NCBI GenBank assembly: GCA_002254365.1
Contig: NIUT01000162.1
Location: 1-50,877, forward strand
From: Nitrospira sp. UW-LDO-01
GTDB lineage: Bacteria > Nitrospirota > Nitrospiria > Nitrospirales > Nitrospiraceae
Reading direction: 5' to 3'
Length of the DNA: 50,877 nucleotides
Shown piece by piece: positions 2,033 to 48,302 of this stretch. Under the pieces are notes generated by a model. The model saw nothing but the letters and a program-made list of their open reading frames with translations, was not told the origin of the DNA and did no database searches. Positions within the stretch are counted from its first letter, which is position 1. Each line of letters opens with the position of its first letter. A program made the position numbers and the translations under genes.

Positions 2033-2902
2033 CTAGTTGCCGGCGTGCGTCGCCGACCGTTGCCACACCAACTGCATCGAGCTTTTCGGAAGCACAGGCT
2101 TCGGCCATTGCACGATCTGCCTGGCTAACTTTTTAAAGGCTTCGGACGCCGGCGCCTCAGGGAATAATTCCAGGACTGCCTTCTGCTGCATGACGGCCAT
2201 CGGCACATAGTCGTCATACGGAATGGCTCCAACCAACTCGAGCGCAACATGCAAAAAACGATCCGCCGCGACATCGAGTTTTCCGAACACCTCGGAGGCT
2301 TCTCGAGGACTCTTGGCTTGGTTCACTAATATCTTGAAGCGACGTGCACGATATTGACGCGCCAAGACCTTGATCAGGGCATAGGCATCTGTGAGTGATG
2401 TGGGTTCTGGAGACACCACGACCACGGTTTCATCAGCCGAGGCGGCAAAAAATGTCACACTTGTAGAAATACCGGCACCGGTATCAATCAACAGCACATC
2501 CATCCCGCCGGAAAACTGCGCTAATTGATCCTGGATGATGAGCTGTTGGGATTCTGTTAATGTCGTCAGCTGCGGGACCCCGGAACTCGCCGGCAAGACA
2601 TGAATTCCTGCCGGGCCTTTCAGCACGATTTCGTCAAATGTATGGGTTCCGGCAAGCACATCTTCGATTGTGAGCCGTGGGACCAGGCCAAGCAGCACAT
2701 CGAGATTTCCTAGGCCGAGATCGGCATCCAGGATGAGGACTCGTTTCCCAAGTTTGGTCAGGGCCATGCCCACATTGGCCACCACATTGGTTTTTCCCAC
2801 CCCACCTTTTCCGCTTGAGACGGCAATCACTTGAGGGAATGACTCACCTTCCCATCTGACATGCTCCGGCACCAGGGCAGACGATTTGGATCTGAGCTGC
2901 AT
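2033..2902 (-). CDS. flhG: MinD-like ATPase FlhG (FleN), flagellar number control
   Basis: This ParA/MinD-family ATPase partners with FlhF to set flagellar number and position. The deviant Walker A KGGVGKTN sits near residue 32, followed by DADLGLGNLD and the LLIDTGAGIS switch region; a C-terminal amphipathic stretch (AFKKLARQIVQW) could bind membrane. The start at 2902 is preferred because GGAGGT lies 6 nt upstream; a longer frame to 3004 would overlap flhF and adds an unconserved extension. That gives 289 residues. The N-terminus lacks a visible DQAxxLR-type motif, the element that stimulates FlhF GTPase in characterised FlhG proteins, and the same gap is present with the longer start. Confidence 0.93.
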   Translation of the reverse strand: MQLRSKSSALVPEHVRWEGESFPQVIAVSSGKGGVGKTNVVANVGMALTKLGKRVLILDADLGLGNLDVLLGLVPRLTIEDVLAGTHTFDEIVLKGPAGIHVLPASSGVPQLTTLTESQQLIIQDQLAQFSGGMDVLLIDTGAGISTSVTFFAASADETVVVVSPEPTSLTDAYALIKVLARQYRARRFKILVNQAKSPREASEVFGKLDVAADRFLHVALELVGAIPYDDYVPMAVMQQKAVLELFPEAPASEAFKKLARQIVQWPKPVLPKSSMQLVWQRSATHAGN

Positions 2903-2921
2903 AGTGTGACCTCCAACCGCG

Positions 2922-4340
2922 TTATCGGTGATAAGTTCCCGTTGCCGCCAACACCAGGTTCGCTTCCACTGAGCGATCTGACTCTCTGACATGATCGTGC
3001 GCACGCTCCGAGCTCCCTGTCGTGAGCTTGGTGGCTAGCTCTTCCGGAGAGGCGACCTCAATATCCCCTGGGACCCGCCGTCCAACACTCCAGTACGACA
3101 GTGGAACTCCGGTCGCATGTCCCACTTCAAAGATCGTTCCAGAAGAGTCCGTTTCGTCGAGTTTGGTAAAGAACAACCGGAGATCCGGAAGTGCCCTCAC
3201 GCAATCGGTCATTTGACAGGCCTCTCGTGCTCTGATGGCGGCCGGCAAGACCAGATGCGTCGTAATAGCATCGTGCTTCAACAAACGACAAAGATCCTGC
3301 GCCAAGGCCAGGTCCGCCGGGGTAATCCCCGGCATATCCATCAACACAAGGTCCACCTTCGCATGGCGGCGCAGCCCGGCTTGCACCTGCCGAGCTGAGA
3401 GCGCACAGGCAAACGGCACTCCGATGATCTTGGCGTACCGCCGAAGCTGTTCCACTGCGGTTTCGCGATAGGTGTCAAACGTAATCAGCGCGACCGACTT
3501 CCGCTGCTCCTGGCGATAGTAGGCAGCGAGTTTGGCGACGGCTGACGTCTTCCCCGCTCCGCTTGGGCCGATGAACAGTTCAATCGCCGGACGTGCCTGT
3601 CCATGATCCAACGGGCCGGTGACGCGCACACGCCGTACAACTTCCTGATGGAGTGCGCGTCTCATCATCTGTTCATCTGGAACATGCGCCAGTCGCCCGG
3701 CCTTCAGTACCTCGCTGAGGAGCAACTCGGTCGTGGACGGATGCATCCCCTGATCGCACAATGATTGACGGAGAGTTGAAAGAACCGGGAACGATTGACC
3801 ACCCGCTGCGGGGGGAGCGCCGACTGGTAAATCACCGAGAGGAACAGTTGAACGAACCGGGATCAATTGACCACTCCCTGCTGGATCTGCTTCCGGCGAA
3901 AGGTTGCGCAACAACTGACTCAGTTCGTCATACACCACTCGTACCCGGCGGCGCCGATTCGGATTCCCAGCCGATGTGGCAGGCGTTTGTGGTGGCTCCT
4001 GTTGGTGATGCTTTCTCCGTTTCGTCTCAGTGATAGGTTTCAACAATCCTCGCAAGGTATGCTGGAATGTCTTCTCCGGATCAACGGCCGGAGGGCTGTC
4101 CCCTGACGTTCGTACGGTCGGCACGGATTCTTGAGCCTGTTTGCTCTCCCGTACAACCTGTGGACGCTCGTACTCAGCTGCCGCCATCACTTCCAACACG
4201 GTGTGATTGAAGACTCGCAGCAGTCGCCCCCCCTCGCGCACTTCTTTGGAGGACAGGATAATGGCATCCGGTCCCAATTCCTCCTTGATGGCTCGGAGGG
4301 CATCCTGCATGGTGAGCGCGTGAAATGTCTTGACCTTCAT
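2922..4340 (-). CDS. flhF: SRP-family GTPase FlhF
   Basis: FlhF is the third SRP-type GTPase and places the flagellum. The 472 residues comprise an N-terminal B domain (MKVKTFHALTMQDALRAIKEELG), a long low-complexity basic linker (about 60-200), then N and G domains. G1 is GPSGAGKTS near residue 257, G2 region DTYRETAVEQLRRYAKIIGV, G4 TKLDE, and the closing GRRVPGDIEVASP is typical of FlhF. G3 reads DMPGI where most family members have DTAGR or DTPGR, so the usual Thr and Arg are missing; GTPase activity may be altered. The linker carries a 24-residue internal duplication (see the repeat at 3774-3880). It is translated just before flhG with a 19-bp gap. Confidence 0.93.
   Translation of the reverse strand: MKVKTFHALTMQDALRAIKEELGPDAIILSSKEVREGGRLLRVFNHTVLEVMAAAEYERPQVVRESKQAQESVPTVRTSGDSPPAVDPEKTFQHTLRGLLKPITETKRRKHHQQEPPQTPATSAGNPNRRRRVRVVYDELSQLLRNLSPEADPAGSGQLIPVRSTVPLGDLPVGAPPAAGGQSFPVLSTLRQSLCDQGMHPSTTELLLSEVLKAGRLAHVPDEQMMRRALHQEVVRRVRVTGPLDHGQARPAIELFIGPSGAGKTSAVAKLAAYYRQEQRKSVALITFDTYRETAVEQLRRYAKIIGVPFACALSARQVQAGLRRHAKVDLVLMDMPGITPADLALAQDLCRLLKHDAITTHLVLPAAIRAREACQMTDCVRALPDLRLFFTKLDETDSSGTIFEVGHATGVPLSYWSVGRRVPGDIEVASPEELATKLTTGSSERAHDHVRESDRSVEANLVLAATGTYHR
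3774..3880 (-). repeat. 72-bp in-frame tandem duplication inside flhF
   Basis: Two 35-nt blocks, 3774-3808 and 3846-3880, are the same except for about five substitutions. They lie exactly 72 bp (24 codons) apart, so the duplication keeps frame. At protein level it gives two versions of a Q-x2-PV-x-ST motif in the FlhF linker. The substitutions show it is not recent. It lies in a disordered stretch where length change is probably tolerated. Confidence 0.65.
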
Positions 4341-31579: not shown

Positions 31580-31655
31580 GCTGGCGTAGCTCAATCGGCA
31601 GAGCAGCGGTTTTGTAAACCGCAGGTTGGAGGTTCGATTCCTCTCGCCAGCTCCA
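31580..31655 (+). tRNA. tRNA-Thr (anticodon TGT)
   Basis: All four arms pair: acceptor GCTGGCG with CGCCAGC, D-arm GCTC/GAGC, anticodon stem GCGGT/ACCGC with loop TTTGTAA (anticodon TGT), and T-arm GGAGG/CCTCT (one G-T pair) with TTCGATT. The CCA end is encoded. It is 76 nt long. The anticodon reads ACA threonine codons. It sits at the junction between the flagellar supercluster and the unrelated right part, a common integration landmark, although I see no integrase beside it. Confidence 0.97.
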
Positions 31656-44845: not shown

Positions 44846-46425
44846 CGGCCCCCAGGACAGCACTGCCACAGTCGAAGAGACACACCGCCCAGGCCGAACC
44901 GCTCCTGACTCATGAAAAATCCTTGTCTCAGAAAATCGGACAGGGTTCCGAAGCCGGTGATATTCTCGACCAACAGCTGGCGATGTTGGGATTCCAGCTC
45001 ATTACGCAGCTAAATACGCTCATCAAGACATCACGCATTCATGGCAGGACGAACGCCGCGCTCGATAAACCGGTCGAAACCATGTTGACCCTGATTCAGA
45101 CGCTGGCCAATGACCACCCCGTGACGTTGCGGATTCAGAATGATTTTCTCTTTCTGGGAGAGCGACATCTCAAGATCAGTGCACAACAGATGCTCGTTGC
45201 ATCGAGCATGATCGACACCATGGCCAAATGGAAGATCGGCGGATTGACGTTTACCTCCTCAACGTCGTCCAAGGATCTTCGCGAGTTCGCCTATCTCTTT
45301 GTCACGCTCGACCCGACCACAAAGTCACTGGAAGAACTCCGACAGGAACTCACGGCCAACGGGGTCACCGCCATCCAACTGGAAGATCCTCGTGAGCTTG
45401 CCCTTCGTGAGGACCCTGCTGGAACGGACCAAGGATCGGCGTCCGGCAACGGGACAGGATCCGCCTCAAAGGCCCATCATAAAGCTCAGTCGAAAGTCGT
45501 GTACGGGAAAGCCGCCAACGAAGTCGGACAGCTGACACAATCGGTACGTGATGGCGGAACGCTGAACTTCAAGCAAGCCAAACGAGCCATCCAAAACATC
45601 GTGGATCTCATGATGCAGGATGAGTCGACGCTGCTGGGTCTCACGACGCTCCGTTGCCACGACCAATACACCCACAACCATTCCGTCAACGTATCTCTCT
45701 TGTCCATCGCCCTCGCAAACCGCGCCGGATATCCCAAGGTCGAACTGGCCGACCTTGGATTGGCAGCGCTGTTTCACGATATGGGGAAAGCCAACATTCC
45801 ACTCGACGTGCTGAACAAACCAGGTGAGTTCACGGAAGAGGAGTGGACGCTGATGCGCAATCATCCGACTGAAGGCGTCTTGAGTCTCACTCAGATCCGT
45901 GGCATCACCAATCTTCCATCGCGCATGGTCGCAGCATCGTTCGAGCACCACATGAATTTGGACTATTCCGGTTATCCCAAATTAAAAACACCGTGGAAAC
46001 TCTCTCTGACTGGCCGCATTCTGATGATCGCAGATTGCTATGACGCGATGACTTCATCACGCGTCTATCGACGAGAACCAATCTCTCCGTCCAAAGTGCT
46101 GAGCATCATGTTTTCAAAATCCGGAAAGAGCTTCGACCCCACACTGCTCAAACTCTTCGTCAACTGTGTCGGCATCGTCCCGATCGGAAGCCTGGTCATG
46201 TTGGACACCGACGAACTGGCCGTGGTACTCAAGCCAGCCGTCGACAAATCCAACGCTGAACGACCTCTGGTCAAAGTGATTACCGACCAGTATGGCACCT
46301 CCATCGACAATGGGCCCGAGCGTGACCTCACCGAACAGGACGAGACCGGCAACTATCGGTACAGCATCATTCGCTTAATCGATACCACCGAATATAAGAT
46401 CGATACCAGCCGGTACTTTGTCTGA
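44842..46425 (+). CDS. HD-GYP domain protein (probable cyclic-di-GMP phosphodiesterase)
   Basis: The 527-residue protein has an N-terminal region of unknown fold (about 1-240) and an HD-GYP domain (about 270-470). Metal ligands are visible in YTHNHSVNVSLLS and LFHDMGKANIP, followed by NHPTEGVLSL and FEHHMNLDYSGYPK. The last motif keeps GYP, but the usual DGxGYP reads DYSGYP. Active HD-GYP proteins hydrolyse cyclic-di-GMP; activity here is unproven because of the change. The start at 44842 overlaps the HEAT gene stop. It lies between the HEAT protein and the folB fusion gene. It may link to motility through cyclic-di-GMP. Confidence 0.88.
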   Translation: MTAPRTALPQSKRHTAQAEPLLTHEKSLSQKIGQGSEAGDILDQQLAMLGFQLITQLNTLIKTSRIHGRTNAALDKPVETMLTLIQTLANDHPVTLRIQNDFLFLGERHLKISAQQMLVASSMIDTMAKWKIGGLTFTSSTSSKDLREFAYLFVTLDPTTKSLEELRQELTANGVTAIQLEDPRELALREDPAGTDQGSASGNGTGSASKAHHKAQSKVVYGKAANEVGQLTQSVRDGGTLNFKQAKRAIQNIVDLMMQDESTLLGLTTLRCHDQYTHNHSVNVSLLSIALANRAGYPKVELADLGLAALFHDMGKANIPLDVLNKPGEFTEEEWTLMRNHPTEGVLSLTQIRGITNLPSRMVAASFEHHMNLDYSGYPKLKTPWKLSLTGRILMIADCYDAMTSSRVYRREPISPSKVLSIMFSKSGKSFDPTLLKLFVNCVGIVPIGSLVMLDTDELAVVLKPAVDKSNAERPLVKVITDQYGTSIDNGPERDLTEQDETGNYRYSIIRLIDTTEYKIDTSRYFV

Positions 46426-46521
46426 CCAGACCAATAATATTCATCATCGCCATTGATAGTCCCCGCTCGATTTCCTTCCCCTCGCTTGACAGGTCAAAAG
46501 AGGATCTTCGACAATGTGCTC

Positions 46522-47457
46522 ATGACCGACCAGATCTGCATCGAGAGATTGGAATTTCGTGGCCGTTGCGGCGTGACACCTGAAGAACGCGCGCGCCCGC
46601 AACCCCTTGCCGTCGATCTGGAGTTGGGATGCCGGATGGATGACGTAGGGATTTCCGATGATCTACGCCACACCATCGACTACGCAGCTGTAGCCCACCG
46701 CATCGTCGAAATCGGAACCGATCGAGAAGCGCAGCTTCTAGAGTCATTCGCCGAACAGCTCATAGCCGCTATCTTTGCTGAATTCCCTGTTGATCGGATC
46801 AAGCTCTGGTTGCGCAAATTGCATCCGCCACTCGTCCATATCACCTCATCCGTCGGCATCACCATTGAGCGGACCAGGTTTGCCCAACTGTTGCTCCGCG
46901 CAGATCCACCCCCAGCAAGGTTTCTCGTGCAGCAGCTGAATCGCCTCCCCAAGGGACTGGTTCTCGACGTCGCCGCAGGAAGGGGACGACACACGCTATT
47001 TCTTTCATCTCTCGGGTACCAGGTCGAAGCCATCGACCGAGATGAGCAAGCGCTCGCACAGCTGTTGGCCGACGCGCGATCGAGACACCTCGCCGGCGTC
47101 ACGACGCAAGCACTGGACTTGGAATCCACGCACCCGCCGGATCTTGGCGAGGAACGGCATGACGCTATCCTCGTCTTCTTGTATCTGCATCGACCGCTCT
47201 TTCCACATCTCATTCGCGCACTGAAACCTGGTGGACTGTTGGTCTATGAGACTTTTCTCATCGATCAGCACCTCCATTACCAGCATCCACGGCATCGGGA
47301 GTTCTGCCTGAGCCATGGGGAACTTTTGGGCCTTACCGCCGGGCTTCGTGTCCTTCACTATGATGAAGGATTACATGAAGGGGCTCGAGACGGAGATTCG
47401 GCCTACACGGCGCAACTCGTAGCACAAAGACCTTTCACCCCTGGAACTTTAGTATGA
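46522..47457 (+). CDS. FolB-type aldolase fused to a SAM methyltransferase
   Basis: The 311-residue product (ATG 46522) joins two domains. Residues about 1-118 match dihydroneopterin aldolase FolB: CIERLEFRGRCGVTPEERA at the start, ESFAEQLIAA and LWLRKLHPPL near the end. FolB makes the hydroxymethyl pterin precursor of folate. Residues about 135-305 form a class I methyltransferase similar to TehB-like proteins: motif I LVLDVAAGRGRHTLFL, then VEAIDRDEQAL and ALKPGGLLVYETF. A GTG at 46516 is an alternative start. The stop overlaps the PHP gene (ATGA). FolB fusions with FolK or FolP are common; one with a methyltransferase is unusual. Confidence 0.85.
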   Translation: MTDQICIERLEFRGRCGVTPEERARPQPLAVDLELGCRMDDVGISDDLRHTIDYAAVAHRIVEIGTDREAQLLESFAEQLIAAIFAEFPVDRIKLWLRKLHPPLVHITSSVGITIERTRFAQLLLRADPPPARFLVQQLNRLPKGLVLDVAAGRGRHTLFLSSLGYQVEAIDRDEQALAQLLADARSRHLAGVTTQALDLESTHPPDLGEERHDAILVFLYLHRPLFPHLIRALKPGGLLVYETFLIDQHLHYQHPRHREFCLSHGELLGLTAGLRVLHYDEGLHEGARDGDSAYTAQLVAQRPFTPGTLV

Positions 47458-48302
47458 GCCGCTTGGACCTTCATCTTCATACAACCCACTCTGACGGAAG
47501 CTGTACGCCCGCGGAGGTCATCAGCCTCGCGCATCAAGCCGGTGTGACGGCCCTCGCTATCACAGATCACGACATCATGACCGGTGTGGCCGAGGCAGTC
47601 ACGGCGGGGGAGCACTGTGGAATTGAAGTCATCCCAGGTGTTGAAGTGAGCTCCATCAGTGGTCGATCAGAGTTGCATATTCTCGGCTACTTTCTTGACT
47701 GGCAAGATGCTGCCCTCAATGAACGATTCAAAACCTTGCGTGACAGTCGACACCGGCGCAATCCACAAATCGTTGAACGGCTCCAAGCACTCGGGATTGA
47801 CATCACCTACGACGAAGTTCGAGCGCTTGCGGGCAGTGACTCGGTGGGTAGACCACACATCGCTCGTGTCTTGATGGACAAACAGGTGGTCTCGTCGGCC
47901 AAGGAGGCCTTTGATCGTTTTCTTGCCGATGGAAAACCTGCCTACGTGCCTCGCGATCTCCCAAGTCCCGCTGAAGCTATTCAATGGATTAAAGCAGCTG
48001 GAGGGTTGGCCGTCTTGGCCCATCCGACCTGGGTCAAACTCGCTGATCGCTCGTTAATCGAGCTGGTTCGAGATCTCAAATCTGCTGGACTCGATGGTGT
48101 GGAGGTCTACTACAGCACCCATGCAACCCGCCAAACGCGCGAGTATCTGAGCCTTGCCCAGCAGCTCGGCCTGTTGGTCACCGGAGGAAGCGACTTCCAT
48201 GGTCTCACAAAACCGGACATTGACGTTGGAATCGGCAAGGGCACTTTGCATGTCCCCACCTCTCTGCTCACGAAAATGAAGGCCGCTGTCGGACGGGTCT
48301 AG
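47454..48302 (+). CDS. PHP-domain metal-dependent phosphoesterase
   Basis: The 282-residue protein begins MSRLDLHLHTTHSDGSCTPA, the PHP motif I, followed by ITDHD (motif II), VIPGVEVSS and a later HPTWV and GGSDFHG, giving a full set of metal-binding His/Asp residues. Length and motif order resemble the TrpH/YciV (RNase AM) family, which degrades short RNAs or 3',5'-nucleoside bisphosphates. It is the last gene of an overlapping set with the folB fusion and ends 76 bp before a palindromic repeat. Confidence 0.9.
   Translation: MSRLDLHLHTTHSDGSCTPAEVISLAHQAGVTALAITDHDIMTGVAEAVTAGEHCGIEVIPGVEVSSISGRSELHILGYFLDWQDAALNERFKTLRDSRHRRNPQIVERLQALGIDITYDEVRALAGSDSVGRPHIARVLMDKQVVSSAKEAFDRFLADGKPAYVPRDLPSPAEAIQWIKAAGGLAVLAHPTWVKLADRSLIELVRDLKSAGLDGVEVYYSTHATRQTREYLSLAQQLGLLVTGGSDFHGLTKPDIDVGIGKGTLHVPTSLLTKMKAAVGRV

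Follow-up and report, generated by a model that had tools for sequence, protein, structure and literature searches.

We found that a gene of Nitrospira sp. UW-LDO-01 encodes, in a single chain, a dihydroneopterin aldolase (FolB) and, behind it, a TehB/Slr1183-like class I SAM methyltransferase, and that this fusion is spread through the order that contains Nitrospira, has a single origin and carries intact motifs in both halves. The reading that we favor, with a probability of about one-half, is a two-headed protein in which an ordinary aldolase is joined to an inherited small-molecule methyltransferase, the latter acting independently and on a substrate that is likely not a pterin. We infer the activity of both halves, the independence of the methyltransferase, and any benefit of the link from the data described below.

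The window is the whole stretch of DNA that was analyzed, contig NIUT01000162.1 (assembly GCA_002254365.1), with a length of 50,877 nucleotides. The fusion gene starts with ATG and encodes 311 amino acids plus a stop; an in-frame TTG lies upstream of this ATG, at position 46453, and the upstream gene, which encodes an HD domain, ends at 46425. The domain order is supported by Pfam, NCBIfam, and fold matches, and the AlphaFold2 model of the whole protein has a mean pLDDT of 93.9 and a pTM of 0.86. In an Rfam scan, no RNA or riboswitch reached the gathering score at the fusion gene, and the sole match in the window was a tRNA at 31580-31652. A large block at 1264-26373 resembles flagellar genes when its ORFs are read by eye.

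Table 1. Positions, in window coordinates, of the fusion gene, its parts, and the adjoining downstream gene
Feature	Position	Strand	Extent or remark	Basis
FolB-methyltransferase fusion gene	46522..47457	+		ORF list, Pfam, NCBIfam, AlphaFold2 model
FolB domain	46522..46878	+	residues 1-119	Pfam/NCBIfam, conservation, fold
Interdomain junction	46879..46908	+	residues 120-129; short, partly helical	AlphaFold2 model, junction sequences
Class I SAM methyltransferase domain, TehB/Slr1183 fold	46909..47439	+	residues 130-306	Pfam, conservation, fold
PHP-family gene	47454..48302	+	4-bp (ATGA) overlap with fusion gene	ORF list, Pfam, NCBIfam

In the N-terminal half, Pfam FolB matches residues 5 to 116 with 93.9 bits (cut-off, 31.8), the NCBIfam folB equivalog TIGR00525 matches with 85.0 bits (cut-off, 72.15), and residues 2 to 120 of the model superpose on solved FolBs with a Z of about 17. 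Residues E22, Y54, E74, and K99, which we take to be the catalytic Glu/Tyr/Glu/Lys positions of FolB, occur without exception in the 98 non-identical fused proteins (from 108 loci, with identical sequences counted once); among the solved structures, Yersinia FolB is represented, according to the titles, by Tyr53Phe and Lys98Ala variants. The initial annotation had allowed for a FolB part that lacks catalytic residues, and the invariance of these four, which extends to the divergent L080, L090, and L092, rules out a degenerate FolB. These three loci have lost W96, an otherwise near-invariant FolB residue. Together with L160 they make up a divergent fused branch, of family f40 where known, and neither moa nor PHP probes matched near its fused genes. 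The junction, conservation, and fused-versus-free sets do not include L001-L003, which duplicate the window, or L069/L070, a single gene divided between two contig ends; L119, which is cut by a contig start, was omitted from the last two, and L117, with an odd domain parse, from the fused-versus-free comparison.

The genome that holds the window (3.91 Mb, 99% complete) has one HPPK/FolK, one FolE, and one FolB match, which is the fused one. Thus, a stand-alone folB, which the initial annotation had thought worth looking for, was not found in this genome, and we saw no candidate for the aldolase step other than the fused FolB. A PTPS-III bypass of the FolB step is described in PMC5041015.

When 295 genomes of the phylum were searched with the fusion protein, 97 of the 98 genomes of the order matched, and in 96 of them, many being one-contig genomes, a single match spanned both domains. 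Seven of the 96 were flagged as having a stop inside the match; all seven genes were fetched and are intact fused ORFs with the stop at the C-terminal edge; what was flagged is therefore the regular end of the gene. In G220, the fusion is split over two contig ends. A FolB profile matched 142 of 146 genomes of the order and all 29 sampled genera, and 140 of the 143 FolB places in these 142 genomes lie in frames of at least 304 amino acids, a length from which fusion is judged in order genomes neither fetched nor included in the 98-genome search. The remaining three places are two at contig ends (G220 and G322) and one free-standing FolB in G312, and the profile found no FolB in four genomes: G288 (99% complete), G302 (92%), G324 (73%), and G331 (64%). 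The initial annotation regarded the joining of the two domains in one chain as non-standard, and it is indeed real, unusual, and fixed across the order. That separate genes in relatives and an assembly error might account for it did not hold up: relatives within the order are fused as well, and the order-wide full-length matches and intact fetched ORFs rule out an assembly error. We found nothing in support of an artefact of assembly, frameshift, or chance, the probability of which we consider practically negligible given the 96 fused genomes, with one-contig genomes among them, and the FolB frame lengths, with two of the three exceptions at contig ends.

G288, which is of the same genus, matched neither FolB nor the fused methyltransferase and has folK; the PHP neighbor also had no match there, in a search run without a positive control, and the absence is likely a gap or a local deletion. 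G312 has a fused FolB and the free-standing one (L162 and L163), the latter of which groups with FolBs from outside the order and could be a second enzyme, a transfer, or contamination. Among plasmid records, none of the 30 with a match spanned 80% of the fusion query.

In the loci that we read from outside the order, FolB and the methyltransferase are encoded separately. Four FolB frames of at least 280 amino acids were read there and none has a methyltransferase: one is a Nudix-FolB, one a FolB-HPPK, and two have upstream extensions. The Nudix-FolB fusion is from the same phylum (L155 in G154, 2162-2929, plus strand) and probably brings two steps of dihydroneopterin metabolism into one chain, and the FolB-HPPK (FolK) fusion (L158 in G290, 2739-3554, minus strand) is from the same class, in a genome that has another FolB. 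A genome scan confirmed 217 stretches, and of the best 80, which were kept, 76 had Nitrospirota-type titles; the other four comprise two unfused cases, L115 (Planctomycetia) and L122 (Nitrospinota), and two fused ones, L138 (Nitrospinota) and L135 (Nitrosospira). L087, titled "Nitrospira," is unfused. The titles of L138, L135, and L087 are at odds with their placement and are probable mis-titles, with transfer as the alternative.

We built trees from 62 methyltransferase sequences and from 46 FolB sequences. A single branch separates the 32 fused methyltransferases from the others, with support of 98/98 and in 99% of bootstrap trees, and the fused FolBs need two changes on the FolB tree because the very long-branched FolB of L159 falls among them. 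These sequences are best explained by one fusion event, no later than the base of the Nitrospira-containing order, and the join looks old, real, and common to Nitrospira-type bacteria.

The C-terminal half has the Rossmann-like fold and the SAM-binding motif of a class I SAM methyltransferase, as seen by Pfam, conservation, the model, and fold comparison. Pfam TehB matches residues 144 to 236 with 40.4 bits (cut-off, 20.4) and Methyltransf_25 matches residues 147 to 238 with 35.9 bits (cut-off, 27), whereas scores against NCBIfam tehB equivalogs were 39.2, 42.9, and 34.9 bits for cut-offs of 219.5, 303, and 218, respectively. Since these scores are far under the cut-offs, the domain is TehB-like and not TehB by the NCBIfam test, which rules out a TehB identity; the term "TehB-like" in the initial annotation was therefore apt for the fold and the Pfam family and does not extend to the equivalog. 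TehB is thought to detoxify chalcogen oxyanions or thiols, and we know of no substrate for the family of the fused methyltransferase. A detoxifying role of this kind, with FolB merely as a carrier, would agree with the Pfam match and with Slr1183 (Z, 23.6) and TehB (Z, about 22) as the closest solved folds, but we consider it decidedly improbable in view of the wide margin by which the equivalogs were missed and because no tellurite gene was recognized among the window ORFs that we read (five proteins by family scan, the rest by eye).

SAM-site residues D149, G155, R156, and D172 are invariant in all 98 non-identical fused proteins, as are the motifs E243-T244-F245, H255-P256, and E260-F261-C262. 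We compared the fused methyltransferases with 33 free-standing ones, counting identical sequences once in the whole comparison; free-standing entries that scored below 100 bits or spanned fewer than 140 columns had been omitted. There are 39 methyltransferase positions with at least 95% conservation in 100 fused sequences, and 28 of these are identical in at least 27 of the 33 free-standing proteins. For example, the free-standing proteins agree with the fused ones at R224 and E267 (33/33 each), E282 (32/33), E243 and T244 (31/33 each), and Y221 (30/33). Because most core residues are thus common to the free-standing relatives, the two-headed protein is favored. Other positions distinguish the two groups: H255 is present in 100 of 100 fused and 6 of 33 free-standing methyltransferases, L275, L271, and L263 are found in 5, 12, and 13 of the 33, respectively, and D172 is found in 16, with Glu in the others. 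The residues altered with the fusion (H255, L263, L275, and D172) could reflect a changed pocket. Some genomes of the order also have a free-standing methyltransferase paralogue (L050, 6250-6996, minus strand; L174, 3210-3929, plus strand), which is longer at the N-terminus by about 75 to 80 residues, a segment in which Pfam shows no domain of its own.

The conservation data also bear on whether the methyltransferase domain might regulate FolB as a SAM sensor or a scaffold, without catalysis of its own. The permanent 1:1 link would suit such a role, and since folate one-carbon metabolism feeds SAM, feedback of SAM on FolB would make sense; however, the invariant residues outside the SAM site match those of the free-standing members, and we regard this role as very improbable.

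The PHP gene downstream of the fusion gene recurs in 97 of 115 fused loci, always in the orientation of the fusion gene and in 64 cases with the 4-bp overlap, and is absent from 13 of the 108 fused loci that have at least 600 bp downstream. All neighborhood counts are of loci, not genomes, since some genomes are represented more than once. Each ORF was taken from its earliest potential start, and PHP gaps other than the 4-bp overlap are therefore biased upstream. The PHP protein scores 233 bits against the NCBIfam 3',5'-nucleoside bisphosphate phosphatase (cut-off, 400) and 198.5 bits against RNase RNM (cut-off, 375), below the cut-off in both cases. On the other side of the fusion gene, moaC is divergent in 36 of the 115 fused loci, mostly within about 150 bp, and many relatives have the fusion gene back to back with moaC-moaE-moaA, some of them with accD and folC farther out. 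The 77 fused loci of at least 6 kb include 32 with moaC, 31 with moaE, 30 with moaA, 18 with accD, and 16 with folC, which are lower bounds because many loci end at contig ends. These identities come from Pfam; for folC, the representative belongs to the Mur-ligase family, and we take it to be FolC in view of its position beside accD. None of the five genes is next to the fusion gene in the window. Thus, the initial view that no folate genes surround the fusion is accurate for this window and does not carry over to many of its relatives.

Among 35 free-standing methyltransferase loci of at least 6 kb, probes for folB, folC, accD, moaA, moaC, and moaE gave no match, and the neighbors, read by eye, presumably encode PrmA, ferredoxin, peroxiredoxin, and LON domain proteins. 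A folC gene lies within a few kilobases in 3 of 14 free-standing FolB loci of at least 6 kb (L167, L171, and L172, all of family f19), so the neighborhood of the fused gene may reflect FolB alone. Of 197 genomes outside the order, 18 have both FolB and the methyltransferase (scored as present from 100 bits), 11 the methyltransferase only, 38 FolB only, and 130 neither, a co-occurrence above chance by a Fisher test that ignores kinship (P = 7e-5). FolB was thus not detected in 11 of 29 methyltransferase-bearing genomes; folK is present in 10 of these 11, which makes it probable that they contain pterins, and the 11th, G059, is 71% complete. This co-occurrence neither proves nor excludes a pterin link.

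The initial annotation had raised the chance of a methylated pterin product or of a folate/SAM-linked side reaction. These data were weighed for the possibility that the methyltransferase methylates the FolB substrate, its product, or a downstream pterin, which would yield a lineage-specific methylated pterin or drain dihydropterin when SAM is plentiful. Such a substrate is suggested by gene-fusion logic, with Nudix and FolK as the partners in the two other FolB fusions that we read in the phylum, by the adjoining moa genes and sometimes accD-folC, by the invariant, fusion-specific H255 with its hint of a changed pocket, and by folK in the FolB-less genomes. We nevertheless consider it unlikely, as most core residues are shared with a free-standing family whose members have no folate or moa probe match in 35 loci and no detectable FolB in 11 of 29 genomes, and as the neighborhood may speak for FolB alone. 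That Nitrospira-type bacteria use the FolB-joined methyltransferase to make a methylated (dihydro)pterin, or to gate folate synthesis through SAM, is likewise unlikely. Independent halves would sit less easily with a fusion retained across an order, which usually means functional linkage, and with the pairing of FolB with Nudix or FolK in the other fusions met in the phylum; the fusion-specific positions, the FolB/methyltransferase co-occurrence, and folK in the FolB-less genomes may also count against independence.

In the two-headed enzyme that we favor, two working parts would have been joined once, no later than the base of the order. The N-terminal half would be the cell's ordinary aldolase, converting dihydroneopterin to 6-hydroxymethyl-dihydropterin and glycolaldehyde and so feeding FolK. 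The C-terminal half would be a working SAM-dependent methyltransferase from a free-standing family that has retained its old small-molecule substrate, most likely no pterin. What the link provides would then be constant co-expression of the two halves, and perhaps a methyltransferase displayed on the FolB oligomer, and not a newly coupled reaction.

The Nitrospira-type clade is important to nitrification, and the fusion ties a methyltransferase family with no substrate found to a defined pathway enzyme in that clade. Since the partner enzyme is defined, one protein and a short substrate list would test both halves. If the methyltransferase takes a pterin, the result would be a new pterin branch in an order of nitrite oxidizers and their kin; if it does not, the protein would clearly illustrate that a fusion can be old and fixed although no pathway couples its halves, a useful counterexample to naive gene-fusion inference. 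In either case, the names "dihydroneopterin aldolase" and "TehB" each cover half of the protein. We found no report of a FolB-methyltransferase fusion in the open-licence literature searched, and in the main text of the gene-fusion survey PMC4921024 the terms "FolB" and "dihydroneopterin" occur 0 times.

Among known systems, FolB (PF02152/TIGR00525; 1DHN, 2O90, and 5F3M) has the whole domain, the presumed catalytic residues, and the fold in common with the fusion; the listed solved stand-alone FolB chains are about 115 to 146 amino acids long, whereas the fusion adds a C-terminal methyltransferase. The FolB-FolK protein of Streptococcus pneumoniae (2CG8) likewise has an N-terminal FolB followed by a second enzyme (119 residues aligned; Z, 16.8), but its partner is the next folate enzyme and that of the fusion is a methyltransferase without a known folate step. 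The TehB tellurite methyltransferase (2XVA, 2XVM, 4DQ0, and 3M70) is like the second half in fold and Pfam family and differs from it by the equivalog scores. The closest solved fold to residues 130 to 306 is Slr1183 of Synechocystis (3MER and 2KW5), for which we saw no function in the open-licence literature searched. It superposes on the methyltransferase half at 1.8 Å over 167 residues with 29% identity and is a free-standing protein, whereas the methyltransferase described here is joined to FolB.
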